Below are positions 30,330-64,000 of a stretch of 64,000 nucleotides of DNA, one piece after another. Location of the stretch: the NCBI GenBank assembly GCA_003164335.1, contig PLTF01000010.1, positions 37,049 to 101,048 of the forward strand, given 5' to 3'. The translations under genes and the position numbers were made by a program. This stretch comes from Fibrobacterota bacterium. GTDB lineage: Bacteria > Fibrobacterota > Chitinivibrionia > Chitinivibrionales > Chitinispirillaceae. The notes beneath the pieces were generated by a model. It did not search any database. It was not told where the DNA came from and saw only the letters and a list, made by a program, of their open reading frames with translations. Every line of letters starts with the position of its first letter. The stretch's first letter is position 1.

Positions 30330-32006
30330 ATGTTGAAAATGACCGATATGAAAATCGGCACCCGTATGCAGGCAGGTTTTGGAATAGTCAATATTTTGCT
30401 TGTCGTTTTGGTGGGAATCGCGTTCTGGGGAGTGGGGTCTTTACTGACAAAGTCCAATGAGCTACAAGCGCAAGACCATATGACTACCCTGACACGGGGC
30501 GTCTCCACCGATATAAGCAGAATATTCCTCGATATCGCGAAAATATCCGAAGCAAAAGACATGGGAATGAAACAAACCTTCAGGGAAGATCTCGACCAGC
30601 AGCGCATTGCCTATAAGGCAAAGCTCGATGAACTGGATGCGACGGTGAACTCTGAAACCGGTAGAAAGCTTGTCCAGGATATTCATGAAAAGGCTGCATC
30701 GTTGACCGATGTCGACAACAGGGTTCTTGAACTTTCCATGGCGGGAAAGGAGAGTGAGGCGGCTGATATTTTCCTCTCTCGGAGCGACAGGGGAATTCAG
30801 GAAGTAATGCAAGCCTGCAACGACCTGATTTCGTGGCAAGAGAAACGAATCGACGAGGCAAAGGCTGCACTCGCAGCAGAGGTAGCCGGCGTGCGCACGA
30901 TGATTATTATCAACGGTATTATCGCCTTCCTTCTCGCCTTCCTGATCGGAATGATCATTACTCGCAGTGTGGCGGGTGTCCTTGGCGCAGCAACCGCCCA
31001 TGCTCAGGAAATCGCAAAGGGCGATGTTTCAAGAGAAGTGCCGGAATTTTTTCTCGTTCGCAAGGATGAGGGGGGCGATCTCGCAAGAGCTTTTAAGGGT
31101 ATGACCGACAATCTGCGCAATTTGATCCGCAATGTTTCAGGTGGAATTCAGACGCTCGCCTCATCATCGACCGAATTGTCCGCTATTGCCAGCCAGACAA
31201 CCGGCGGCGTCAAGGCTATTTCGGCCCAGACCACCGCGGTTGCCGCGGCGGCCGAGGAGTCGAGCGCCAATACCCTGTCGGTAGCGACAAGCATGGAAGA
31301 AGCGTCTGCAAATCTGGGCTCGGTTGCGAGCGCGACCGAGGAGATGAGCGCTACGGTGGGCGAGATCGCCTCGAATTCCGAGAAGGCGCGGTCGATCAGC
31401 GAGCAGGCGATGTCGCAGGCGCAAACCATATCGTCCATGATGCAGCAGCTTGGGGCCGCGGCGCAGGAGATCGGGCAGGTGACCGAGACCATTACCGACA
31501 TATCGTCGCAGACCAACCTTTTAGCCCTCAACGCGACCATCGAAGCGGCGCGTGCAGGCGCGGCGGGCAAGGGTTTTGCCGTGGTGGCCAACGAGATCAA
31601 GGAGCTGGCGCGGCAGACCGCGGCCGCAACCGAGGATATAAAGGCCAAGATAGGCGGCGTCCAGAGCTCGACCGGCAGCGCCATCGCGGATATCGACAAG
31701 ATCGTGGATGTCATCAAGGAGGTGGGAACCATCGTTTCGAGCATTGCGGCGGCCATCGAGGAGCAATCGACGGTGACGCGCGACGTTGCCGGAAACATCG
31801 CGCAGGCTTCGAGCGGGGTCCAGGAAGCAAACGAGCGGATCAGCCAGACCGCTGCGGTGTCCAAGACGATTGCAACGGATATTGCCGGGATAAGCGCTGG
31901 TGTCAGCGAAATCAGCCAGGGTGGGGAGCAAGTGCAGACAAGCGCAGTCGAGCTGTCGAAACTTTCGGAGCAACTTAAGGAAATGGTGGGCCGGTTCAAG
32001 GTATAG
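30330..32006 (+). CDS. Methyl-accepting chemotaxis protein
   Basis: A 558-residue transmembrane receptor. TM1 at ~16-36, a periplasmic four-helix-bundle sensor (~40-190), TM2 ([19 protein letters not shown], ~192-212), HAMP (~213-270), and a signalling domain with an intact hairpin tip [20 protein letters not shown] (~391-410) and [18 protein letters not shown]. The C-terminus has no tethering pentapeptide. It is the receptor of the main che cluster, with AGGGAG before ATG 30330. The ligand is unknown. Confidence 0.95.
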
Positions 32007-51352: not shown

Positions 51353-51928
51353 ATGCCGAACACCGTTCTTATCGTTACAGGTTGCAAAGAGTGGGGATCA
51401 TCGCTGGTCCGCTATTTTGAAAAGAAAGAGTTCATGGTGACCGGATGTTCGAACTACCGGGAAGCGGAACGCATCGCCGCCTCGGAGTGGTTCTCCATCG
51501 CCATTATCGATTATTTCATCGGCGGAGCCGACGGCGGGGCGCTTTGCGACACCCTGGCACGGCAGCAGGCCGCAGACACCGCGCTCATCATCGTCAGCGG
51601 CAGACAGTCCGCCGGTATCGAGCGGGCCATCCGCCGCCACTCCCCGGCATATTACTTTGTTAAGCCGTGCTCCTTTGAAAATCTTCATGCCGTCGCGCTC
51701 AGGATCTGCTGTGAGCGCGATAAAAAGGAGCTGCAGAAAAATACGCAGCGCCAGTCGATAGTCAAGGTAGTGCACTCCCCGCGCGGAAGTACCCGTGGAA
51801 GAAAAGGCCGAAAAATTCCTGTCAACGGCAAGGGCGGGATGCCGTCCGCCGGGCGAAAAGCGTCATTGGAAAATCGGCCAGCAGGCAAGTACGTGCCGGG
51901 CTCAGCCATGGCAGGGAAGCAGCAATGA
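51353..51928 (+). CDS. Degenerate receiver-domain protein with basic tail
   Basis: A 191-residue protein. The first ~120 residues are a receiver fold with a candidate phospho-Asp (AIIDYFIGG), Ser in IIVSGRQS and Lys in YFVKP, but the metal-binding acidic pair is replaced (VTGCKEW). It may therefore not be phosphorylated normally. The last ~60 residues are Arg/Lys/Gly-rich and probably disordered. Its stop overlaps the ATG of the next cheA by four bases, implying coupled production and perhaps a direct partner. Confidence 0.8.
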   Translation: MPNTVLIVTGCKEWGSSLVRYFEKKEFMVTGCSNYREAERIAASEWFSIAIIDYFIGGADGGALCDTLARQQAADTALIIVSGRQSAGIERAIRRHSPAYYFVKPCSFENLHAVALRICCERDKKELQKNTQRQSIVKVVHSPRGSTRGRKGRKIPVNGKGGMPSAGRKASLENRPAGKYVPGSAMAGKQQ

Positions 51929-54117
51929 CAAACCACTATGCCGCCATCGAAGGGCACTTGAACTCAATTGCCGCAAGGATTCCGCTGCTTGAAAATTCGG
52001 ATTTGTCCCCATTTGCCCTCATTATCAACAGCCTCAACGCAATCCCGGGCATCATGGAGCTTCCTCCTGCTTTCAAGGCGCAGATCCAGCGAACGGTTTC
52101 GCTCATCGAAAACATCATTCTTGGAGCAGTTGACTTCGGCGCGGGGTGCAGGAAGCTGGGACAGAGCTGCGAAAAAATGATAAAAGCAACTTCCGCATTA
52201 GGCGGAAAAAAAGGGGAAAAGAATGCCGAGGAGTTTTTTCCTCTTGAAGACGAAGATACCGGAAACGACAACAGGGTACCGGACACCGGCACGACCCCGA
52301 CGATTGCAGCGCCGACCATTGCAGGCGATCCCTCGCTGCTGGCGGATTTTATCACCGAGGCGTCGGAGCATATTCATACCGCAGAAAGGGTGCTGCTCGA
52401 ACTCGAAATAAACCCTGCGGACGAGGAGCGGATCAACGCGGTCTTCCGCGCCTGGCATACCATCAAGGGAGTTGCGGGATTTCTTAACCTGAAAGAGATA
52501 CAGAGCTTTGCGCATGGCATGGAGAGCGCAATGGACCGGGTCCGCAGGGGCGAAAGCACGCTCAACGCAGCCCGGATCGATGTGCTGCTCGAATCCAACG
52601 ACTGCCTGAAGGCATTCATGAAAAATGTCGAGAATACCCTTTCCGGTGGTTCTTTCGAGATCCCGGATAATTATGAGGCGCTGGTGGACCGCTTGATGGA
52701 GCTTGATGCTCAGCCGTTCCCCGATGACGCTGCCACCATCGCCTGTCCGGAAAAAAAGATCGGCGAACTTCTCGTCGAGCAGGGCATGGTATCCCGGGAA
52801 TCGGTTGACGAATCCCTTAAATTCCAGGAGCAGGGCGACAAGCGGAAAATCGGCGAAATACTCATCGAAGACCGGGCGGTGCCGGCGCGCGCGGTTGCAG
52901 GAGCTCTCGCTGCCCAGACTGCCGGAAAATCCGGCAGTGCGATCGAGGAAACCATCCGCGTGCCGGTAAGCCGCATCGACCAGATTGTCGACATCATCGG
53001 CGAGGCAGTCATCGCGCAATCCATGATTTATGCGGACAAGACCATAAAGGCGATCGACGACCAGGGCATCAACACCAAAATCAGCCACGCGGCGATGATC
53101 ATGCGGCAGATGCAGGAAATGGCCATGTCGCTGCGAATGGTATCGGTAAAGGCCACCTTCCAGAAAATGGCGCGACTGGCCCGAGATCTTTCGAAAAAGT
53201 GCGGCCGGGAGATCGATTTCGTCACCGAAGGCGAGGAGACCGAAATCGATAAATCGGTCGTCGAAAAGATCGGCGACCCTCTGGTGCACATGGTGCGCAA
53301 TGCGGTCGATCACGGCATCGAACCGCCGGAGGAACGCGTTGCCGCCGGCAAGCCGCAGAAGGCGACGGTCCGCCTCCGGGCATACCACCGTGCCGGTAAT
53401 ATGTACATTGACGTAGCGGACGACGGCCGCGGGCTCGACCGGGACGCGATCTTCGCCAAAGCGGTCGAGCGCGGGCTCTGCAAAGCCGATGCACGATTGA
53501 CCGACAGCGAAATATTCGGCTTTATTTTCCTGCCCGGCCTCTCGACGGCAAAGCAGGTCACGGATGTATCGGGCCGCGGCGTGGGTATGGATGTGGTGCG
53601 GCGCAACATAGAGGCGCTCCGCGGCTCGGTGGAAATCATGTCGACCCGGGGCCGGGGTACCACGTTCTCCATCCGCCTTCCCCTGACGCTCGCCATAGTG
53701 GACGGTATGATCGTTGCCGCAGGAAGCGAGGAATACATTATCCCTACCCTCGCCATCCTCGAATCGCTCAAGCCCGGCGAGCACCAGATTGAAACAGTCA
53801 TGGGCAAAGGACAGGTCATCAAGGTGCGTACCGACCTTATTCCTCTGGTGAACCTTGCCTCCCTTTTCAGCGGTAACCGTTGCGCCGGAGCGGCGGCCGG
53901 TCGGGAGGGCGTCGTCATGATTGTGGAAGATATGCTGGGCAAAAAAATAGGGCTGCACCTCGACGAAATCATCGGGCAGCAGCAGGTGGTGATCAAGAGC
54001 CTCGGGGAAGAACTCGGTGAAATACCCGGCGTCACGGGAGGTGCGATCATGAATGACGGAGGGGTAAGCCTGATACTCGATATCGGCGGAATTGTCAAGC
54101 TGGCGCACGGAGGGTAA
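51925..54117 (+). CDS. cheA: CheA-type histidine kinase, module copy 1
   Basis: A 730-residue CheA. It has an unusual ~100-residue N-terminal helical region (PPAFKAQIQRTVSLIENI), then HPt with His in AWHTIKGVAGFL (~178). After this comes a ~60-residue segment with two repeats of the form IGELLVEQGMVSRESV / IGEILIEDRAVPARAV, similar to GspE/MshE N-terminal domains. P3 dimerisation, ATPase (HMVRNAVDHGIEPPEER; DVSGRGVGMDVV) and one CheW-like domain to the end follow. No receiver. A close paralogue is encoded at 58574-60745. The cognate CheW, MCP and response regulator follow directly. Confidence 0.94.
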   Translation: MTNHYAAIEGHLNSIAARIPLLENSDLSPFALIINSLNAIPGIMELPPAFKAQIQRTVSLIENIILGAVDFGAGCRKLGQSCEKMIKATSALGGKKGEKNAEEFFPLEDEDTGNDNRVPDTGTTPTIAAPTIAGDPSLLADFITEASEHIHTAERVLLELEINPADEERINAVFRAWHTIKGVAGFLNLKEIQSFAHGMESAMDRVRRGESTLNAARIDVLLESNDCLKAFMKNVENTLSGGSFEIPDNYEALVDRLMELDAQPFPDDAATIACPEKKIGELLVEQGMVSRESVDESLKFQEQGDKRKIGEILIEDRAVPARAVAGALAAQTAGKSGSAIEETIRVPVSRIDQIVDIIGEAVIAQSMIYADKTIKAIDDQGINTKISHAAMIMRQMQEMAMSLRMVSVKATFQKMARLARDLSKKCGREIDFVTEGEETEIDKSVVEKIGDPLVHMVRNAVDHGIEPPEERVAAGKPQKATVRLRAYHRAGNMYIDVADDGRGLDRDAIFAKAVERGLCKADARLTDSEIFGFIFLPGLSTAKQVTDVSGRGVGMDVVRRNIEALRGSVEIMSTRGRGTTFSIRLPLTLAIVDGMIVAAGSEEYIIPTLAILESLKPGEHQIETVMGKGQVIKVRTDLIPLVNLASLFSGNRCAGAAAGREGVVMIVEDMLGKKIGLHLDEIIGQQQVVIKSLGEELGEIPGVTGGAIMNDGGVSLILDIGGIVKLAHGG

Positions 54118-54385: not shown

Positions 54386-54904
54386 ATGTCCCACACATTG
54401 GAAAGCGGAACGGCGGTCGCCGAACAGAGCAATGTCGGCGAAAAACTTGCCGGTAAATACCTCACCTTCAGGCTTACCGAGGAGGAGTACGGCCTCGAAA
54501 TCCTCAAGGTACAGGAGATCATCCAGATGCAGGCGGTGACAAGGGTTCCCCGCACCCCGGACTATGTCCGCGGCGTCATCAACCTTCGCGGCAAAGTGAT
54601 TCCGGTTGTCGACCTGCGCGCCAAATTCGGCTTTGAGAATGTCGCCGATACCGAGCGGACCTGCATCATCGTGGTCCAGATCGCCCACGCGACCGCAACC
54701 ATCGTCATGGGGGTCATTATCGACGAGGTGAAGGAGGTGCTCGATATCCATGCCGAAAATATCGAGGAGACGCCGTCGTTCGGGGCTACCATCGATACGG
54801 AATTCATTCTCGGCATGGGCAAGATCGGGCAGAGCGTCAAGATACTGCTCGATATCGATAAGGTTCTTTCGGCCGAGGAGATTGCTGCGCTGCAACCGGC
54901 ATAG
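54386..54904 (+). CDS. cheW: CheW coupling protein, module copy 1
   Basis: A 172-residue CheW with LTFRLTEEEYGLEILKVQEI, RTPDYVRGVINLRGKVIPVV, DLRAKFG and GVIIDEVKEVLDI. ATG 54386 has AAGGA at 9 nt; ATG 54377 is an alternative. It is the partner of the adjacent CheA and MCP. In the second module copy only about the first 25 codons of its homologue survive (60873-60947). Confidence 0.94.
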   Translation: MSHTLESGTAVAEQSNVGEKLAGKYLTFRLTEEEYGLEILKVQEIIQMQAVTRVPRTPDYVRGVINLRGKVIPVVDLRAKFGFENVADTERTCIIVVQIAHATATIVMGVIIDEVKEVLDIHAENIEETPSFGATIDTEFILGMGKIGQSVKILLDIDKVLSAEEIAALQPA

Positions 54905-54968: not shown

Positions 54969-57722
54969 ATGCTTAACAGTATTAAATTGGGGCCCAAAAT
55001 GATTGGCGGGTTCATTCTCGTCGCCCTCATATCAGCCTTTGTCGGAACGCACGCGGCAGGCAGCGTTCAAAATATGGTCATCGGTTTCACGATCGCCGTA
55101 GCGCTTGGCCTTGCGATCGGGATTTCCCTTACTGTCTCCATTGCCGGCCCCCTCGCAAAGGGTGTTGCCATGATGCAGGAGATGGTGAAGGGACACTTGA
55201 GTACACGCCTCAAGATGAACCGGAAGGACGAAATAGGCGCCCTGGCGAATTGCATGGACGAGTTCGCCGAGGATCTCCAGAAAAAAGTAGTCGCTGCGGT
55301 AGTGACAATCGGTGAGGGCGACCTCTCCGTTGACATCAAGGCAAAGGACGGCCAGGATGAGATTGCACCGGCGATCATGAAGACGGTGCTATCCCTTCGT
55401 ACACTGGTGGCCGATATGAATACGATGAGCAAGCAGCACGACCTCGGCGATATCGACGTCGTCATGGATGGCACCCGGTTCAGCGGAGCCTATCGCGAAA
55501 TGGCCGAGGGAGTCAACAAAATGGTCAATGGTCACATCGCTGTCAAGAAAAAGGCTATGGCCTGCATTGCAGAATTCGGCAAAGGTAATTTCGAAGCACC
55601 TCTTGAAAAATTCCCGGGCAAAAAAGCTTTCATCAATGATAATATCGAAGCGCTGAGAACCAATCTCTTGAAAGTAAATGTCGAATTAGGTAAACTGATC
55701 CAGGGGGCAGCCGACGGCGACCTCGATAAGCGCGCGAATCCGGACCTGTTCCTCGGCGGCTGGAAGCAGCTGGTTTCCGGCGTCAACGATACGATTACCA
55801 ACATCGTCAATCCTCTCATGGTGACCGCAGAGTATGTGGAAAAAGTATCCAAGGGAGTCATTCCCCCCGAAATAACAACGGTGTACAAGGGCCAGTATAA
55901 CCTTATCAAGAACAACCTCAATGCAGTGGTAAAAATGATGAGTGACCTGCTCAAGGAAACGGACATCATCATAAAGGCAGCGGCCGACGGCGAGCTCGAT
56001 AAGCGGGCGAACCCGGACCTGTTTCTCGGCGGATGGAGGCAACTTGTTGCCGGTGTCAACGAGACGATAACGAATATGGTCAATCCGCTCATGGTGACCG
56101 CGGACTATGTGGAAAAGATCTCAAAAGGGATAATTCCGCCCGAAATAACCACGGTATACAAAGGCCAGTATAATCTTATCAAGACCAACCTCAATGCCGT
56201 TGTCAGGATGATGAGCGAATTACTCAAGGAAACGGACATCATTATAAAGGCCGCCGCAGACGGCGAACTCGATAAGCGCGCCAATCCGGACCTGTTCGCC
56301 GGTGGCTGGAAGCAGCTGGTGTCCGGCGTCAACGATACGATCACCAACATAGTCAACCCCCTCATGGTGACGGCCGGCTATGTGGAAAAAGTTTCAAACG
56401 GTGTCATCCCGCCCGAAATAACCGATGTTTATAAAGGGCAGTATAACCTCATCAAGAACAACCTCAATGCGGTCGTTACGATGATGAGCTCCCTGCTGCG
56501 GGAAACTAACCTCCTCGTCCAGGCCGCGATAGGGGGCCAGCTGGGAACACGGGCAAACGCAGGACTGTTCGTGGGAGGGTGGAACGAGCTGGTCGCCGGA
56601 GTCAACAAGACGCTCGACTCGGTTCTGGAGCCCATCAACGAGGCCGCCGCGGTCCTCGAAAAGGTTGCGGGCCGCGATCTGACTGTCCGCGTCAAGGGTG
56701 ATTACAAGGGCGACCATGCAAAGATCAAGCAGGCGCTCAATTCCGCCGTCGATAATCTCGACCAGGCCCTCACTCAGGCGGCTGAGTCGGCCGAGCAGGT
56801 GGCTGGAGCAAGTACGCAGATTTCCGAAGGCAGCCAGTCGCTGGCGCAGGGCGCCAACGAGCAGGCATCGAGCCTCGAAGAGGTATCGTCGAGCCTCGAA
56901 GAAATGTCGTCCATGACCAAACAGAATGCCGAGAACGCCAACCAGGCCAAAACCCTCGCAGCCGAGGCGAACGGCAACGCAGCCCAGGGCGCTGAGGCAA
57001 TGGGGAACATGAGTATCGCCATCAATAAGATCAAGGAGTCCTCGGACCAGACAGCGAAAATCGTCAAGACGATCGATGAGATCGCGATGCAGACCAACCT
57101 TCTTGCGCTCAATGCCGCGGTCGAAGCGGCCCGGGCCGGGGAGGCGGGCAGAGGATTTGCCGTGGTCGCGGAGGAGGTGCGTAACCTTGCGCAGCGATCG
57201 GCGCAGGCCGCTAAAAACACCGCCGATATGATCAGCGAATCGGTCAAGAATGCGGAGGATGGAGTCAAGATCTCCGGCGAAGTTTCCAAGTCGTTCGAAT
57301 CTATTGCCGTGAGCTCGAAAAAGGTGAACGACCTGATCAATGAGATCGCTGCAGCCTCATCGGAACAGTCGACCGGCATCGATCAACTCAATACCGCGGT
57401 TGCACAGATGGATAAGGTGACACAGCAGAATGCGGCCAACAGCGAGGAGTCTGCAGGGGCCTCGGAGGAGATGAGTTCACAGGCCGAAGAGCTGCAAAGC
57501 ATGATCGCGCAATTCAGCCTGACCTCCTCGATGGGCAAGCGGGATAGAGCTCCCCGCCCGGCTCACGCCATGAAAACCGTACAGCACGATGAAGACCATG
57601 GCTATTCAGGAAAGGCCAGGCCGGCGCCCGTGGTAACGGTTCGGTCCAGGAAATCGGGTAACGGTAAAGTTGATCCTGAGGAGGTCATCCCGATGAAGAG
57701 TGAAGTTCTCAGGGAGTTTTAG
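54969..57722 (+). CDS. Methyl-accepting chemotaxis protein with poly-HAMP region, module copy 1
   Basis: A 917-residue receptor. Two membrane segments near the start (~13-30 and ~36-56) are separated by only a few residues, so there is no periplasmic sensor. Then HAMP (~57-110) and a long series of HAMP-like units, including three tandem 91-residue repeats (unit key residues DLFLGGW, NPLMVTA, PPEITTVYKGQYNLIK). The signalling domain has an intact tip [20 protein letters not shown] (~709-728). After a variable linker the protein ends IPMKSEVLREF, a peptide shared with the second-copy MCP. Signals are probably intracellular. Confidence 0.93.
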   Translation: MLNSIKLGPKMIGGFILVALISAFVGTHAAGSVQNMVIGFTIAVALGLAIGISLTVSIAGPLAKGVAMMQEMVKGHLSTRLKMNRKDEIGALANCMDEFAEDLQKKVVAAVVTIGEGDLSVDIKAKDGQDEIAPAIMKTVLSLRTLVADMNTMSKQHDLGDIDVVMDGTRFSGAYREMAEGVNKMVNGHIAVKKKAMACIAEFGKGNFEAPLEKFPGKKAFINDNIEALRTNLLKVNVELGKLIQGAADGDLDKRANPDLFLGGWKQLVSGVNDTITNIVNPLMVTAEYVEKVSKGVIPPEITTVYKGQYNLIKNNLNAVVKMMSDLLKETDIIIKAAADGELDKRANPDLFLGGWRQLVAGVNETITNMVNPLMVTADYVEKISKGIIPPEITTVYKGQYNLIKTNLNAVVRMMSELLKETDIIIKAAADGELDKRANPDLFAGGWKQLVSGVNDTITNIVNPLMVTAGYVEKVSNGVIPPEITDVYKGQYNLIKNNLNAVVTMMSSLLRETNLLVQAAIGGQLGTRANAGLFVGGWNELVAGVNKTLDSVLEPINEAAAVLEKVAGRDLTVRVKGDYKGDHAKIKQALNSAVDNLDQALTQAAESAEQVAGASTQISEGSQSLAQGANEQASSLEEVSSSLEEMSSMTKQNAENANQAKTLAAEANGNAAQGAEAMGNMSIAINKIKESSDQTAKIVKTIDEIAMQTNLLALNAAVEAARAGEAGRGFAVVAEEVRNLAQRSAQAAKNTADMISESVKNAEDGVKISGEVSKSFESIAVSSKKVNDLINEIAAASSEQSTGIDQLNTAVAQMDKVTQQNAANSEESAGASEEMSSQAEELQSMIAQFSLTSSMGKRDRAPRPAHAMKTVQHDEDHGYSGKARPAPVVTVRSRKSGNGKVDPEEVIPMKSEVLREF
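55741..56559 (+). repeat. Tandem 273-bp coding repeat, three units
   Basis: Units start at 55741, 56014 and 56287, each 273 bp (91 codons) and in frame within the MCP gene. Units 1 and 2 are nearly the same at protein level; unit 3 diverges in its last ~30 residues, and a partial, more divergent unit follows. They encode paired HAMP-like helices. Confidence 0.85.
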
Positions 57723-57813: not shown

Positions 57814-58248
57814 ATGAAAGGCCGGATGCTGATTATCGACGATGAGATGGCATTCTGCTCTTTTCTGCGATGCCTCTTTAACCAGGACGGCTTTGCCGTG
57901 GAAACGGCCCGCAACGGCACAGACGGTCTGGCGCTTGCGCGGACCCGGCAATTTGACGTGATCATCACCGACCTGATGATGCCGAACCTTGATGGTATGG
58001 AGGTCATCGCGCGTCTCCGGGCAGACGGTAACGACGTTCCGATCATCGCGATAACCGCCTATACTCCCTTCGAAATAAATCTCAATGCCGCCCGGAACGA
58101 CCAGGTTGACATTGTCATCTATAAGCCGTTCTCCTCACAGGAGATCAGGGATGTCGTCGAATCGGTACTGGTAAAAAAAAGCGGGGGTGAGGGAACCCGC
58201 AAGTCGGCCGGAGAGCGGTTCTTTCCCTTCAACAATCAAGGCTTATAG
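57814..58248 (+). CDS. Response regulator, module copy 1
   Basis: A 144-residue receiver with LIIDDEMAF, phospho-Asp in VIITDLMMPNLDG and Lys in IVIYKPF, plus a short basic tail. ATG 57814 has GAGG upstream. It is the probable phosphoacceptor of the module CheA. The start of a close paralogue (KGRLLVIDDEKAF) is at the window end after the second MCP. Confidence 0.92.
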   Translation: MKGRMLIIDDEMAFCSFLRCLFNQDGFAVETARNGTDGLALARTRQFDVIITDLMMPNLDGMEVIARLRADGNDVPIIAITAYTPFEINLNAARNDQVDIVIYKPFSSQEIRDVVESVLVKKSGGEGTRKSAGERFFPFNNQGL

Positions 58249-58573: not shown

Positions 58574-60745
58574 ATGCCACACGATTTTGGATTGGTCGAA
58601 GAGCGGCTCAATACGGTCGCGGCAGAAATTCTGCTGCTTGAAAAAACCAATCTTGCCCTGCTTAACCCGATTCTCGGCGTTCTTACCGGTCTTTCTGAAG
58701 GAGGCACGCTGCCTCCGGCATTTACTACCCAGATTCAGCGTACCGTATCGCTCATTGAGAAAATGATTCTCGGGGAGGTCGATTTCGTTGCGGGAAGCAA
58801 AAAACTCGGCATAAGTATTGAAAAAATGCTCAGGGTGGCCGGGAACCTGAAACGGGGAGAAGGGCCGTTGCCCGAGGAGGGGGAAGACCCGGAGCAGGAG
58901 CCGGAATCGAGCGAAGCGGGCGATACCGGAAAGACGCAAGCCGGAGCCCCTTTGTCCATCGGGGGAGACCGGTCGCTCTTGACCGATTTCGTCAATGAAG
59001 CCCGCGATCATATTTCTGCGGCGGAAACACAGCTCCTCGATCTGGAAACAAACCCGGCCGATTCGGCACGCATCGACGGGGTCTTCAGGGCATGGCATAC
59101 CGTGAAGGGGGTAGCGGGCTTTCTCAATCTGAAGGAGATCCAGAAACTGGCGCATACCATGGAAAGCGTCATGGACCGTACACGGAAGGGTGAGCATGCC
59201 CTCTCTCCCGTCACCATCGACACGCTTCTGGAATCCAACGACTGCCTGAAAGCTTTTATCGATAATGTCGAGGAGTCGATCGGCGGAGCACACCCGGCGA
59301 TTCCCGGGCAATACGAGGCGGTGCTCATCCGGCTGGCCTCGCTCGAATCGCAAAAAGGTCCCCAGCCTCCTGAGGGAAAGATACGGATCGGGGATCTGCT
59401 TGTCCGGCAGGGGATCGTTTCCCGTGAGGTGGTCGAGGAAGCCCTCATGAAACAGAAGCAGGGCGATACCAGAAAGATCGGCGAAATACTTATTGAAGAC
59501 AAGCGGGTATCCGCCAGTGAAATCGGCAGCGCCATAGCCGCGCAATCGTCCGCCCGGTCGTCAATTACCATAGAGGAAACCATCCGGGTCCCGGTGGGCC
59601 GCATCGACCAGCTGGTCGATGCGGTCGGTGAGGCGGTAATCGCCCAGTCCATGATTTATGCCGATAAGCTGGTCATGGGAATCGCCGACCAGGCGGTTCA
59701 GACAAAAATCGGCCATGCCGCGATGATCATGCGGCAGATCCAGGAAATGGCCATGTCGCTCCGGATGGTTTCGGTACTGGCGACCTTCCAGAAAATGGCC
59801 CGCCTTGCAAGGGATCTGGCGAAAAAATGCGGTCGGGAAATCGACTTCATTACCGAAGGAGAAGATACGGAACTCGACAAATCGGTCGTCGAGAAAATCG
59901 GGGATCCGCTGATCCATATGATCCGCAACTCGGTCGATCACGGTATCGAACCTCCCGATGAGCGCGAAAAAACCGGGAAACCATCCAGGGCAACGGTAAA
60001 GCTCCGCGCGTATCACCGGGCCGGCAATATTTACATTGAGGTATCGGATGACGGCAGGGGTCTCGATCGGGCGGCAATCCTTCGCAAGGCGGTCGAAAAG
60101 GGCCTGTGCAAGCCGGAGGAACGCCTGACGGATGATGCCGTTTACCGGTTCATTTTTCTCCCCGGATTTTCAACGGCAAAGCAGGTGACCGATATTTCCG
60201 GACGTGGAGTCGGCATGGATGTCGTACTCCGCAATATCGAGGCGCTGCGTGGGTCGGTGGAGATAGTCTCGACCCCCGGAAAAGGCACAACCTTTTCTAT
60301 CCGCCTGCCGCTGACACTGGCCATTGTCGACGGCATGATCGTCCGCGCCGCAGGAGAGCAATACATTGTGCCGACCCTGGCGATCGTCGAATCGCTCCGC
60401 CCTGCAGAGGGTCAGATCGAGCGGGTAATGCAGCGCGGCGCCATGATCAAAGTACGAAGGGACCTTATCCCGCTTATAAATCTTGAATCGCTGTTCGGCA
60501 GGAACACCCCTTCGCAAACAGATGCCGCCGGTGACGGCGTAGTCATGATCGTCGAAGACATGCTGGGGAAAAAAATAGGCCTTCACCTCGATGACATCGT
60601 CGGCCAGCAGCAGGTGGTGATCAAGAGCCTCGGCGAGGAGATGGGCGAAATTGCCGGCATTGCCGGCGGAGCGATCATGAGCGACGGATCGGTAAGCCTG
60701 ATTCTCGATGTCGGCGGCATCGTCAAGCTGGCGCAGGGAGGATAA
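58574..60745 (+). CDS. cheA: CheA-type histidine kinase, module copy 2
   Basis: A 723-residue paralogue of the CheA at 51925, same domain order: N-terminal helical region (PPAFTTQIQRTVSLIEKM), HPt with His in AWHTVKGVAGFL (~174), GspE-N-like repeats (IGDLLVRQGIVSREVV / IGEILIEDKRVSASEI), P3, ATPase (HMIRNSVDHGIEPPDER; DISGRGVGMDVV) and a CheW-like domain. All catalytic motifs are kept, so it should be active, yet its own cheW is reduced to a relic and its MCP lacks a CheA-binding tip. It may use CheW and receptor from copy 1. Confidence 0.94.
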   Translation: MPHDFGLVEERLNTVAAEILLLEKTNLALLNPILGVLTGLSEGGTLPPAFTTQIQRTVSLIEKMILGEVDFVAGSKKLGISIEKMLRVAGNLKRGEGPLPEEGEDPEQEPESSEAGDTGKTQAGAPLSIGGDRSLLTDFVNEARDHISAAETQLLDLETNPADSARIDGVFRAWHTVKGVAGFLNLKEIQKLAHTMESVMDRTRKGEHALSPVTIDTLLESNDCLKAFIDNVEESIGGAHPAIPGQYEAVLIRLASLESQKGPQPPEGKIRIGDLLVRQGIVSREVVEEALMKQKQGDTRKIGEILIEDKRVSASEIGSAIAAQSSARSSITIEETIRVPVGRIDQLVDAVGEAVIAQSMIYADKLVMGIADQAVQTKIGHAAMIMRQIQEMAMSLRMVSVLATFQKMARLARDLAKKCGREIDFITEGEDTELDKSVVEKIGDPLIHMIRNSVDHGIEPPDEREKTGKPSRATVKLRAYHRAGNIYIEVSDDGRGLDRAAILRKAVEKGLCKPEERLTDDAVYRFIFLPGFSTAKQVTDISGRGVGMDVVLRNIEALRGSVEIVSTPGKGTTFSIRLPLTLAIVDGMIVRAAGEQYIVPTLAIVESLRPAEGQIERVMQRGAMIKVRRDLIPLINLESLFGRNTPSQTDAAGDGVVMIVEDMLGKKIGLHLDDIVGQQQVVIKSLGEEMGEIAGIAGGAIMSDGSVSLILDVGGIVKLAQGG

Positions 60746-60872: not shown

Positions 60873-60947
60873 ATGTCCCCTAGCCTCGAAAGGGAAGCTT
60901 TTGTTGCCGGGTCGGGCGGGCTCGGAGAAAAGCTGGCCGGAGGAGTA
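60873..60947 (+). pseudogene. cheW relic, module copy 2
   Basis: ATG 60873 begins MSPSLEREAFVAGSG...LGEKLAG, which matches the N-terminus of the CheW at 54386 (MSHTLESGTAVAEQSNVGEKLAG) over ~23 residues. The rest is missing; just after LAG the bases GGAGGAGTAC resemble a later part of the intact gene (EEEYG), suggesting an internal deletion. The position between cheA and MCP is that of cheW in copy 1. Confidence 0.65.
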
Positions 60948-61020: not shown

Positions 61021-63864
61021 ATGCTTAATAGGATCAAAATTGGAACAAAATTGCAGGTTGGGTTTCTCATTGTTTCGGCAATAGCCTCGATAAATGCAAT
61101 CCAGGCGGTTTTCAACTTTGCCTCTCTCGAAAAAAGCAGTCGCTATCTCTATGAGAAATGCACCCTGCCGCTTGCAGAGATCGGAAGCATTGCATCCCGG
61201 TTCGAACTGACCAGGGTTTCGATGCGCGACATGCTCCAGGCCGCCGATCCCGCAACTATCCGGACCTGCATTGACAATATGAGGGAATGCCGGGAGCTTC
61301 TTGTAAAGGCTACGGAAGATTACAAAGGGACGCTTTCCGGGGAAGCCGACAAAGGGAACTATAAAACGTTCTGCAGGACAAATGCGGATTACTTCGCATT
61401 GCTCGATGCCGTGGAAGCGCTTGCCGGGCAGCGCAAAACCGGTGAGGCGTGGAAGATCGTCCATACACGAGGACCGCAAATTGTAAAGAACGAGCAGGAT
61501 GCCATTGCCGCCGTTACGGATGAAGTTCTCGAAAATTCAAAACGTTCGGCAGAAAATAACGCGAAGGAAGCGCATACCGCCACGGTCATGATGATCATCA
61601 TCCTCATCGCCGGATCGGGCATCGGCATCGCCATCGGCATTTTCCTCACCCGCAGCATTGCCGGGCCGCTTTCGAAATGCGTCGCCATGATGCGGGAACT
61701 CGGCAGGGGTCATCTCCGGAACCGCCTGCACGTGGGCGACCGCCAGGACGAAATCGGGATCATGGCCAATGCCATGGATCGATTCGCCGACGATTTGCAG
61801 AAAAATGTCGTCACCACGATCCAGAAAATCGGGGATGGAGAATTGACGGTCGATATCGCCGCCATGGACGATAAGGATGAAATCGCCCCGGCCCTGGAAA
61901 AAACTGCGGCTTCGCTCAAGGGATTGATCGAAGAGATGGAATCCATGAGCCGGAAGCACGACCGGGGCGAAACCGATGCGTCAATCGATGCCGGCAAATT
62001 TCATGGAGCCTACCGGGAGATGGCCGAGGGAGTCAATGCGATGGTTGCCGGGCACCTGGCGGTCAACCGGAAGGCGATGGCCTGCGTGGCCGAATTCGGC
62101 AAGGGGAACTTTGAGACGGCACTCGAAAAATTTCCGGGCAACCTTGCCCATATCAATGAAACCGTGGAACAGGTCCGCAACAACCTCAAGGCGCTTATCA
62201 CCGATACCCGGATGCTGACCGGCGTCGCAGCCGAGGGAAGGCTTTCGGTCCGTGCCGATGCGTCAAAGCACGAGGGCGATTTCCGGACCATCATCCAGGG
62301 ATTCAACGACACGCTCGATGCGGTGATCGGCCCGCTCAACATTGCAGCCGAATATGTCGACCGGATAAGCCGCGGAGAAATCCCGGAGAAAATCACCGAG
62401 AATTACAACGGCGATTTCAATACCATCAAGAACAATCTCAACCGGTGTATCGAAGCCCTGAGCGGCCTCCTGGAAGCCCGCGCCGAAATGAGCAAACTGC
62501 ATGACCGGGGAAAAATCGATGCCGTCATGCCGGTTGACAAATTTCAGGGGGCCTATGCCGAAATGGCGGAAGGCATCAACTCCCTGGTGCAGTCGCATAT
62601 CGCGGTCACCTTGAAAATCGTGCAGGTGGTCGGCCAGTATGCGCAGGGCGACCTGTCCGTCGACATGGATCGGCTTCCCGGTGAGAAGGCGATGATAACC
62701 GATGCCATCGATAAGGTAAAAAGCCAGCTATTGTCGGTCAATGAGGAGATCATGGTCCTGGTGGAAGCAGCTACGCAGGGGAGGCTCGGCGTCCGTGCAG
62801 ACGACTCCCGGTTCAATTTCCGCTTCAAGGAGATGGTCAAGGGCTTAAACGAGGTGATGGATGCGGTGGTCGGTCCCCTGAATGTTGCGGCGAAATGCAT
62901 CGACGATATCAGCAAGGGTGCCGTTCCGCCGAAGATCGCCGAATCGTTCCAGGGAGATTACAGCCTTCTCATCAATAACCTGAATACCTGCATCGATGCG
63001 GTTAACCTGCTTGCAACCGATACCCGCATGCTCAGCAGCGCCGCCTCCGAGGGCAGGCTGTCGATCCGGGCCGATGCCTCCAGGCACGAGGGCGATTTCC
63101 GGAAAATCGTTCAGGGCGTGAACGACACGCTCGATGCGGTAATCGAACCGGTCAATGAGGCTTCGGCGGTTCTCGAACAGGTAGCGGCCCGGAATATGAC
63201 GGTGCGCATGCAGGGACAGTACAAGGGCGATCTTGCCAAAATCAAAAATGCTCTCAATGCGGCGGTTGAAAACCTCCAGGTCGTGCTTGCCCGGGCGGCA
63301 GATTCGGCCAGGCTGGTAGCTGGCGCAAGCCGGCAGATTTCTGCGGGGAGCCAGTCGCTCGCCCAGGGTGCCAATGAGCAGGCATCGAGTCTCGAGGAGG
63401 TGTCGTCGAACCTTGAAGAGATGTCGTCAATGACCAAGCAGAATGCCGAGCACGGGGTGCGTATATCCGGGGAAGTGGCAAACTCGTTCGAGGCCATCGC
63501 GGTCAGCTCTAAAAAAGTCAACGATCTGATAGCCGAAATTGCCGCGGCCTCGAAGGAACAGTCGCAGGGAATCGACCAGTTGAACAATGCGGTCGCGCAA
63601 ATGGACAAAGTGACGCAGCAGAATGCGGCGAACAGCGAAGAGTCCGCCGGTTCAGCCGAAGAATTGAGCACGCAGGCGGAGGAGTTGCAAAAAGTGATCG
63701 CACAGTTTACTCTGAGCGCTACCGGCGAAGGATCGCGCCCGATCCGCCGGGAAAAGACGCTCCGGCTCGACGATGGGCATCGCCGGTACGGTACAACGAA
63801 ACCCGTATATGCAGATCCCGAAACGATTATTCCGATGAAGAGTGAGGTTCTCGGGGAATTTTAG
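61021..63864 (+). CDS. MCP-like receptor lacking the signalling hairpin tip, module copy 2
   Basis: A 947-residue receptor. TM1 (~8-30), periplasmic helical-bundle sensor (~35-180), TM2 (~185-207), HAMP and a long HAMP-like series with units such as GRLSVRADASKHEGDF...VQGVNDTLDAVI. The signalling region runs SLEEVSSNLEEMSSMTKQ, NAE, then directly HGVRISGEV. Relative to the copy-1 MCP, 108 residues are missing, including the whole CheA/CheW-binding tip. The frame is kept, and the rest of the descending helix and the C-terminal peptide IPMKSEVLGEF are intact. Likely unable to control a kinase in the usual way; possibly a decoy or heterologous array component, or a decaying gene. Confidence 0.9.
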   Translation: MLNRIKIGTKLQVGFLIVSAIASINAIQAVFNFASLEKSSRYLYEKCTLPLAEIGSIASRFELTRVSMRDMLQAADPATIRTCIDNMRECRELLVKATEDYKGTLSGEADKGNYKTFCRTNADYFALLDAVEALAGQRKTGEAWKIVHTRGPQIVKNEQDAIAAVTDEVLENSKRSAENNAKEAHTATVMMIIILIAGSGIGIAIGIFLTRSIAGPLSKCVAMMRELGRGHLRNRLHVGDRQDEIGIMANAMDRFADDLQKNVVTTIQKIGDGELTVDIAAMDDKDEIAPALEKTAASLKGLIEEMESMSRKHDRGETDASIDAGKFHGAYREMAEGVNAMVAGHLAVNRKAMACVAEFGKGNFETALEKFPGNLAHINETVEQVRNNLKALITDTRMLTGVAAEGRLSVRADASKHEGDFRTIIQGFNDTLDAVIGPLNIAAEYVDRISRGEIPEKITENYNGDFNTIKNNLNRCIEALSGLLEARAEMSKLHDRGKIDAVMPVDKFQGAYAEMAEGINSLVQSHIAVTLKIVQVVGQYAQGDLSVDMDRLPGEKAMITDAIDKVKSQLLSVNEEIMVLVEAATQGRLGVRADDSRFNFRFKEMVKGLNEVMDAVVGPLNVAAKCIDDISKGAVPPKIAESFQGDYSLLINNLNTCIDAVNLLATDTRMLSSAASEGRLSIRADASRHEGDFRKIVQGVNDTLDAVIEPVNEASAVLEQVAARNMTVRMQGQYKGDLAKIKNALNAAVENLQVVLARAADSARLVAGASRQISAGSQSLAQGANEQASSLEEVSSNLEEMSSMTKQNAEHGVRISGEVANSFEAIAVSSKKVNDLIAEIAAASKEQSQGIDQLNNAVAQMDKVTQQNAANSEESAGSAEELSTQAEELQKVIAQFTLSATGEGSRPIRREKTLRLDDGHRRYGTTKPVYADPETIIPMKSEVLGEF

Positions 63865-63958: not shown

Positions 63959-64000
63959 ATGAAAGGCCGACTGCTGGTCATTGACGATGAAAAGGCGTTC
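63959..64000 (+). CDS. Response regulator, module copy 2 (partial, cut by window end)
   Basis: Only the first 14 codons are present: KGRLLVIDDEKAF after the ATG, with the receiver acidic pair. They match the start of the regulator at 57814 (KGRMLIIDDEMAF). GTGAGG lies upstream. Its presence completes the second cheA-(cheW)-MCP-regulator module. Confidence 0.8.
   Translation, partial: MKGRLLVIDDEKAF

Follow-up and report, generated by a model that had tools for sequence, protein, structure and literature searches.

Probable complementary degeneration of a duplicated chemosensory cassette in a Fibrobacterota genome, with a chemoreceptor that has lost its signalling tip

Organization of the Chemosensory Locus

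The stretch of DNA analyzed here (64,000 bp; hereafter, the window) comes from a Fibrobacterota genome assembly of 164 contigs that is 98% complete with 5.5% estimated contamination. Two chemosensory cassettes are found in the window (Table 1). The gene order is cheA1-cheW1-mcp1-receiver in cassette 1 and cheA2-(cheW2 stub)-mcp2-receiver in cassette 2. On the same contig, genes for cheR, cheX, cheY, cheD, HDOD, and cheB lie 3' of RR2, past the end of the window. A third cheA-cheW-mcp set, of which the receptor is designated MCP3, is located on another contig (L024:514-6087, contig C27). On contig C51, a single 660-aa chain (L025:14029-16011) contains two MCP signalling stretches with no sensor domain detected, and it lies next to a 977-aa CheA-like protein and a 654-aa protein in which several CheW-like domains occur.

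Table 1. Coordinates of the chemosensory genes and sequence features in the window.
Feature	Position	Strand	Description	Evidence
cheA1	51925..54117	+	kinase of cassette 1, 730 aa	Pfam Hpt, H-kinase_dim, HATPase_c, CheW
cheW1	54386..54904	+	intact stand-alone adaptor	Pfam CheW, 131 bits
MCP1	54969..57722	+	two TM segments, no periplasmic sensor, HAMP rod, tip, C-terminal VLREF	ORF, Pfam
Upstream direct repeat in MCP1	56923..56933	+	AGAATGCCGAG	motif search
324-bp MCP1 segment	56934..57257	+	tip and flanking helix parts on both sides; counterpart missing in MCP2	alignment
Downstream direct repeat in MCP1	57247..57257	+	AGAATGCGGAG; 1 mismatch (GCGGAG), 324 bp further on	motif search
RR1	57814..58248	+	receiver-domain protein of cassette 1	ORF; sequence like RR2
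cheA2	58574..60745	+	intact kinase of cassette 2, 723 aa	Pfam Hpt, H-kinase_dim, HATPase_c, CheW
cheW2 stub	60873..60944	+	first 24 codons (MSPSLEREAFVAGSGGLGEKLAGG)	tblastn E 7e-4; shuffle test
MCP2	61021..63864	+	4HB sensor, HAMP rod, both methylation helices, tip absent, C-terminal VLGEF	ORF, alignment, Pfam
4HB_MCP_1 sensor of MCP2	61033..61569	+	periplasmic sensor, residues 5-183	Pfam, 75.6 bits
Deletion junction in MCP2	63440..63450	+	one AGAATGCCGAG	motif search, alignment
RR2 (start)	63959..64000	+	receiver protein 3' of MCP2, extends past the window	contig C133 continuation (L022)

For the kinases, CheA1 and CheA2 are sisters in the phylogeny. All domains are present in CheA2, and its branch length (0.37) shows no acceleration compared with its paralogues (0.29 and 0.36). 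Between cheA2 and mcp2, only a stub of cheW2 is left, in which 13 of 28 aligned residues are identical to those of CheW1 and for which the score of 47 exceeds the highest value (38) from 2000 dinucleotide-shuffled sequences. Past the stub, which lies directly upstream of mcp2, the reading frame goes through unrelated sequence to 61001. Stand-alone CheW1 and CheW3 are still present in the genome. Among the relatives, cheA, cheW, and a receptor with both sensor and tip are retained, and in most clusters cheW is intact and located close to cheA and the receptor gene.

A 324-bp In-frame Deletion in MCP2

The MCP2 reading frame is uninterrupted over 947 codons (947 aa). Its TM1-sensor-TM2-HAMP input module is present (HAMP, 70.2 bits; two TM segments), and both methylation helices are kept, with EE pairs in a small-residue context (SSLEEVSS and NSEES). 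Protein and DNA alignments with MCP1 reveal a single gap of exactly 108 codons after TKQNAE, where MCP2 reads TKQNAE-HGVRISGEV and the additional residues of MCP1 include the hairpin tip NLLALNAAVEAARAGE. The PF00015 score of MCP2 (35.2 bits) is barely above the cut-off of 34.6 bits, compared with 155.7 bits for MCP1.

The first-pass annotation had attributed this gap to a deletion between short direct repeats that took the CheA/CheW-binding tip. Its coordinates and arithmetic for the two MCP1 repeats and the single junction copy are right, and the 108-codon gap together with the junction repeat supports the proposal. The motif AGAATGCSGAG has four matches in the window, compared with 0.15 expected by chance. 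The fourth match (52220-52230) is inside cheA1 and unrelated to the deletion. The MCP1 repeats suggest that the MCP2 ancestor also carried such a direct repeat before the deletion. Because cheW2 is reduced to a stub and the MCP2 tip is deleted, cassette 2 has neither an adaptor nor the receptor part to which an adaptor docks.

Asymmetry of the Deletion and Predicted Fold

Symmetric heptad insertions and deletions define receptor length classes in the Alexander and Zhulin scheme (described in PMC5907407), and these classes range from 12 to 32 paired heptads (PMC6628036). Arm lengths (from TKQNAE to the turn and from the turn to NSEES) were measured in 161 intact relatives and are 74/100 (n = 137), 67/93 (n = 20), 88/114 (n = 3), and 74/97 (n = 1). 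The two arms vary together by 7 or 14 residues, such that their difference is exactly 26 in 160 of the 161. In MCP1, the hairpin turn is located 69–70 residues past the start of the part missing from MCP2 and 38 residues before its end. The loss in MCP2 thus amounts to about 70 residues of the outgoing helix and 38 of the returning helix, and the total of 108 leaves a remainder of 3 on division by 7, and so divides evenly by neither 7 nor 14. Since the cut is asymmetric while 160 of the 161 relatives keep symmetric, 7-residue units per arm and the difference of 26, MCP2 does not represent a shorter receptor class.

The signalling domains of MCP1 and MCP2 were modelled with AlphaFold as monomers of a coiled coil, using the same 31 relatives as the alignment (32 sequences). 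The MCP1 model, which served as the control, is an antiparallel hairpin that matches Tsr (1qu7_A; TM 0.79 over 224 columns) and 3zx6_A (0.88). DSSP had given the impression of a single helix for both models, and for MCP1 this was rejected after comparison with solved structures. The MCP2 counterpart is predicted as a single straight helix (residues 2–142; mean pLDDT 87.7, pTM 0.40), with no match among solved PDB structures at E values up to 10. Together with the 70/38 loss, these monomer predictions of a coiled coil support, without proving, that MCP2 has lost the antiparallel hairpin with matched heptads.

Distribution of Tipless Receptors Among Relatives

Among 191 surveyed ORFs that contain the C-terminal arm of the receptor, of which overlapping loci contribute some, the tip is present in 185. 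Of the others, four are cut by contig ends, one is a C-terminal fragment (L086), and one is MCP2. Six candidates that failed the tip regular expression turned out to carry variant tips. This genome's other receptors with the same kind of arm all have tips. The tip had been described in the first-pass annotation as near-universal, and MCP2 is indeed the sole exception among the informative related receptor ORFs. Once duplicates had been removed, the comparison covered 161 distinct intact signalling domains, and no second tipless form was found beside them. The junction-spanning peptide, searched against 168 genomes of the phylum, matched only the returning arms of intact receptors, so that the search of related genomes suggested at first pass returned no tipless relative. 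A literature search, with many subscription papers outside its reach, also found no report of natural tipless receptors. For the 82%-complete genome of the same genus (G001), no match to CheA2 was found at E 1e-5, and hence no orthologue was available from it. The genus may vary in its possession of this chemosensory system, given this missing CheA2 match.

Loss of the Sensor in MCP1 and MCP3

While MCP2 lacks the tip, MCP1 and MCP3 have the tip and lack the 4HB domain. Their TM1-TM2 gap is only about 10–15 residues. In MCP1 (54969-55140), about 155 residues of periplasmic sensor are lost relative to MCP2, and a short loop joins the two TM segments. In all six relatives examined, by comparison, the cluster receptors combine a 4HB sensor with a tip-bearing signalling domain. 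Sensorless two-TM forms account for six of 143 ORFs in a simple hydropathy count, and two of these six are MCP1 and MCP3. In this genome (98% complete), sensor and tip do not occur together in any receptor of this class, and only MCP2 has the sensor. The genome's only other 4HB protein is a receptor of another chemosensory system (30330-32006 in the window).

The HAMP rod, measured from the HAMP start to methylation helix 1, has the same length in MCP1 and MCP2 (577 residues each) and is shorter in MCP3 (491 residues). The MCP1 and MCP2 rods align over 604 columns with two gap positions and 47% identity. Given that CheA1 and CheA2 are sisters and that MCP3 is more distant from MCP1 and MCP2 than these two are from one another in the tree, the sensor was either lost twice or regained once.

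Age of the Deletion and Constraint on MCP2

Where the MCP2 signalling domain is retained, 23 alignment columns are at least 90% conserved, and MCP2 deviates at none of them. The frame is open and GC3 is still coding-like, such that MCP2 shows neither the broken frame nor the decayed conserved sites of a pseudogene. The terminal branch of MCP2 (0.223, compared with 0.136 for MCP1) is within the range of the other receptors. The pN/pS between MCP2 and MCP1 is 0.11–0.13 in both retained arms and mostly reflects the period preceding the deletion. The dN/dS ratio does not date the event, as synonymous sites are near saturation and most of the divergence is older than the deletion. In addition, 168 genomes of the phylum provided no tipless MCP2 orthologue by which to date the deletion or gauge later selection. 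These patterns suggest that constraint acted on MCP2 during most of its past, and point either to a recent deletion or to a product that is still of use. The first-pass view that the gene has not been long neglected agrees with the lack of change at the conserved retained columns. Near the junction, the outgoing arm (56784-56933 / 63301-63450) has a lower MCP1/MCP2 pS (0.51) than the returning arm (0.93), which may reflect gene conversion, with only 50 codons compared.

Interpretation

The hairpin tip region holds the trimer contacts as well as the CheA and CheW binding determinants (PMC4692393). Because of these trimer contacts, a tipless MCP2 homodimer should not join trimers or arrays in the usual way. 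The locus is probably best explained by a duplicated signalling cassette whose copies are decaying in a complementary fashion, in the course of which MCP2 was recently uncoupled from its kinase. A cheA-cheW-mcp-receiver cassette may have been duplicated in tandem, after which the copies degenerated differently. In cassette 2, slippage or recombination between direct repeats of about 11 bp would have removed 324 bp of mcp2 and severed its signalling hairpin, and a separate deletion would have removed nearly all of cheW2. The MCP2 product is still expected to enter the membrane and to dimerize by way of the 4HB sensor and HAMP rod, and it may be methylated. Folding of the tip, with its CheA, CheW, and trimer contacts, is not expected, nor is control of CheA by the normal route. 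As tipless MCP2 should not enter core complexes, uncoupling is favoured, and CheA2 could still be used if served by CheW1 or CheW3 and the tip-bearing MCP1 and MCP3. Most likely, MCP2 lost its coupling not long ago and is on course to disappear. Of the roles proposed at first pass, "newly non-functional" is the best-supported, and the adjacent cheW loss, the asymmetric cut, and the absence of a hairpin from the predicted fold all strengthen it. The asymmetry about the turn, the cheW2 deletion, and the sensor loss in MCP1 and MCP3 extend that first account. Counting against uncoupling, the 4HB sensor, the 577-residue HAMP rod, the methylation helices, and the VLGEF motif of MCP2 are all intact and open. 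Since these modules are intact and MCP2 is the sole sensor-bearing receptor of its class in the genome, something in it is perhaps still selected.

An unlikely alternative is a receptor split by complementary loss, in which MCP2 supplies sensor and rod, MCP1 (and MCP3) supplies rod and tip, and the two jointly signal to CheA through a heterodimer or side-by-side contact of HAMP rods. The rarity of sensorless two-TM forms, the 4HB sensor and tip combined in the cluster receptors of all six relatives, the separation of sensor and tip among all receptors of this class in the genome, and the identical rod lengths of MCP1 and MCP2 are consistent with such a division. However, common descent also predicts equal rod length, a heterodimer tip would have one hairpin where two are needed, and the 4HB sensor is normally a homodimer. 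The CheW2 loss is better explained by decay, and the genomes searched contain no tipless orthologue that would point to long-term retention. The fuller version, in which duplication was followed by division of one receptor into a sensor half, MCP2, and a half that couples to the kinase, MCP1 and perhaps MCP3, with signals passing laterally through the equal-length MCP1/MCP2 rods, is quite unlikely.

An assembly or strain artefact, with the tip lost during metagenome assembly or the junction joining two strains, is very unlikely. The fragmented assembly and its estimated contamination leave room for it. Nevertheless, the sequence shared with MCP1 at the junction (about 12 bp) is far below usual assembly word sizes, the product is exactly in frame with a clean frame on both sides, and the genome has a single MCP2 locus.

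The first-pass suggestion of a dominant-negative or spacer component of arrays found no support and appears highly improbable. Spoiling would be possible only through mixed MCP1/MCP2 dimers, which could form via the similar HAMP rods (47% identity), but array entry needs the trimer contacts and the CheA and CheW sites of the missing tip (PMC4692393), and no sequence feature points to a regulatory role. Finally, a new working short length class is barely credible; the 66 residues left between the arm anchors could in principle provide enough coil for helices that fold back as a short hairpin, but the cut is asymmetric and not a multiple of 14, the tip motif is absent, and AlphaFold predicts no turn.

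The tip is among the most conserved parts of chemoreceptors, and the receptors compared here change length almost only by paired heptads. MCP2 breaks both rules, beside a sensorless sister of equal rod length and a deleted cheW. The MCP2/MCP1 pair illustrates how a duplicated chemosensory cassette comes apart, and provides a natural test of sideways signal passing between the HAMP rods of different receptors.

Comparison With Known Chemoreceptors

Compared with MCPs that have a 4HB sensor and a poly-HAMP rod, MCP2 shares the TM1-4HB-TM2-HAMP arrangement, the HAMP_2/HAMP_N3 repeats, the methylation helices, and a C-terminal aromatic tether-like motif, and differs by having no signalling tip. 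Chemoreceptor pseudogenes reportedly include Tlp genes of Campylobacter. As in such cases, MCP2 is one copy of a family and has probably lost its receptor function, although its frame is fully open on either side of a precise deletion. Similar to the heptad length classes, MCP2 has lost coiled-coil length in frame within the signalling hairpin. In contrast to those classes, the loss differs between the arms, the turn is gone, and the 108 residues do not make up whole heptads. Receptors that lack an extracytoplasmic sensor form a known minority class (PMC6628036). MCP1 and MCP3 resemble this class in having two TM segments and almost no periplasmic loop, and differ from it in having a sister with a matching rod, MCP2, in which the sensor is kept and the tip is missing.
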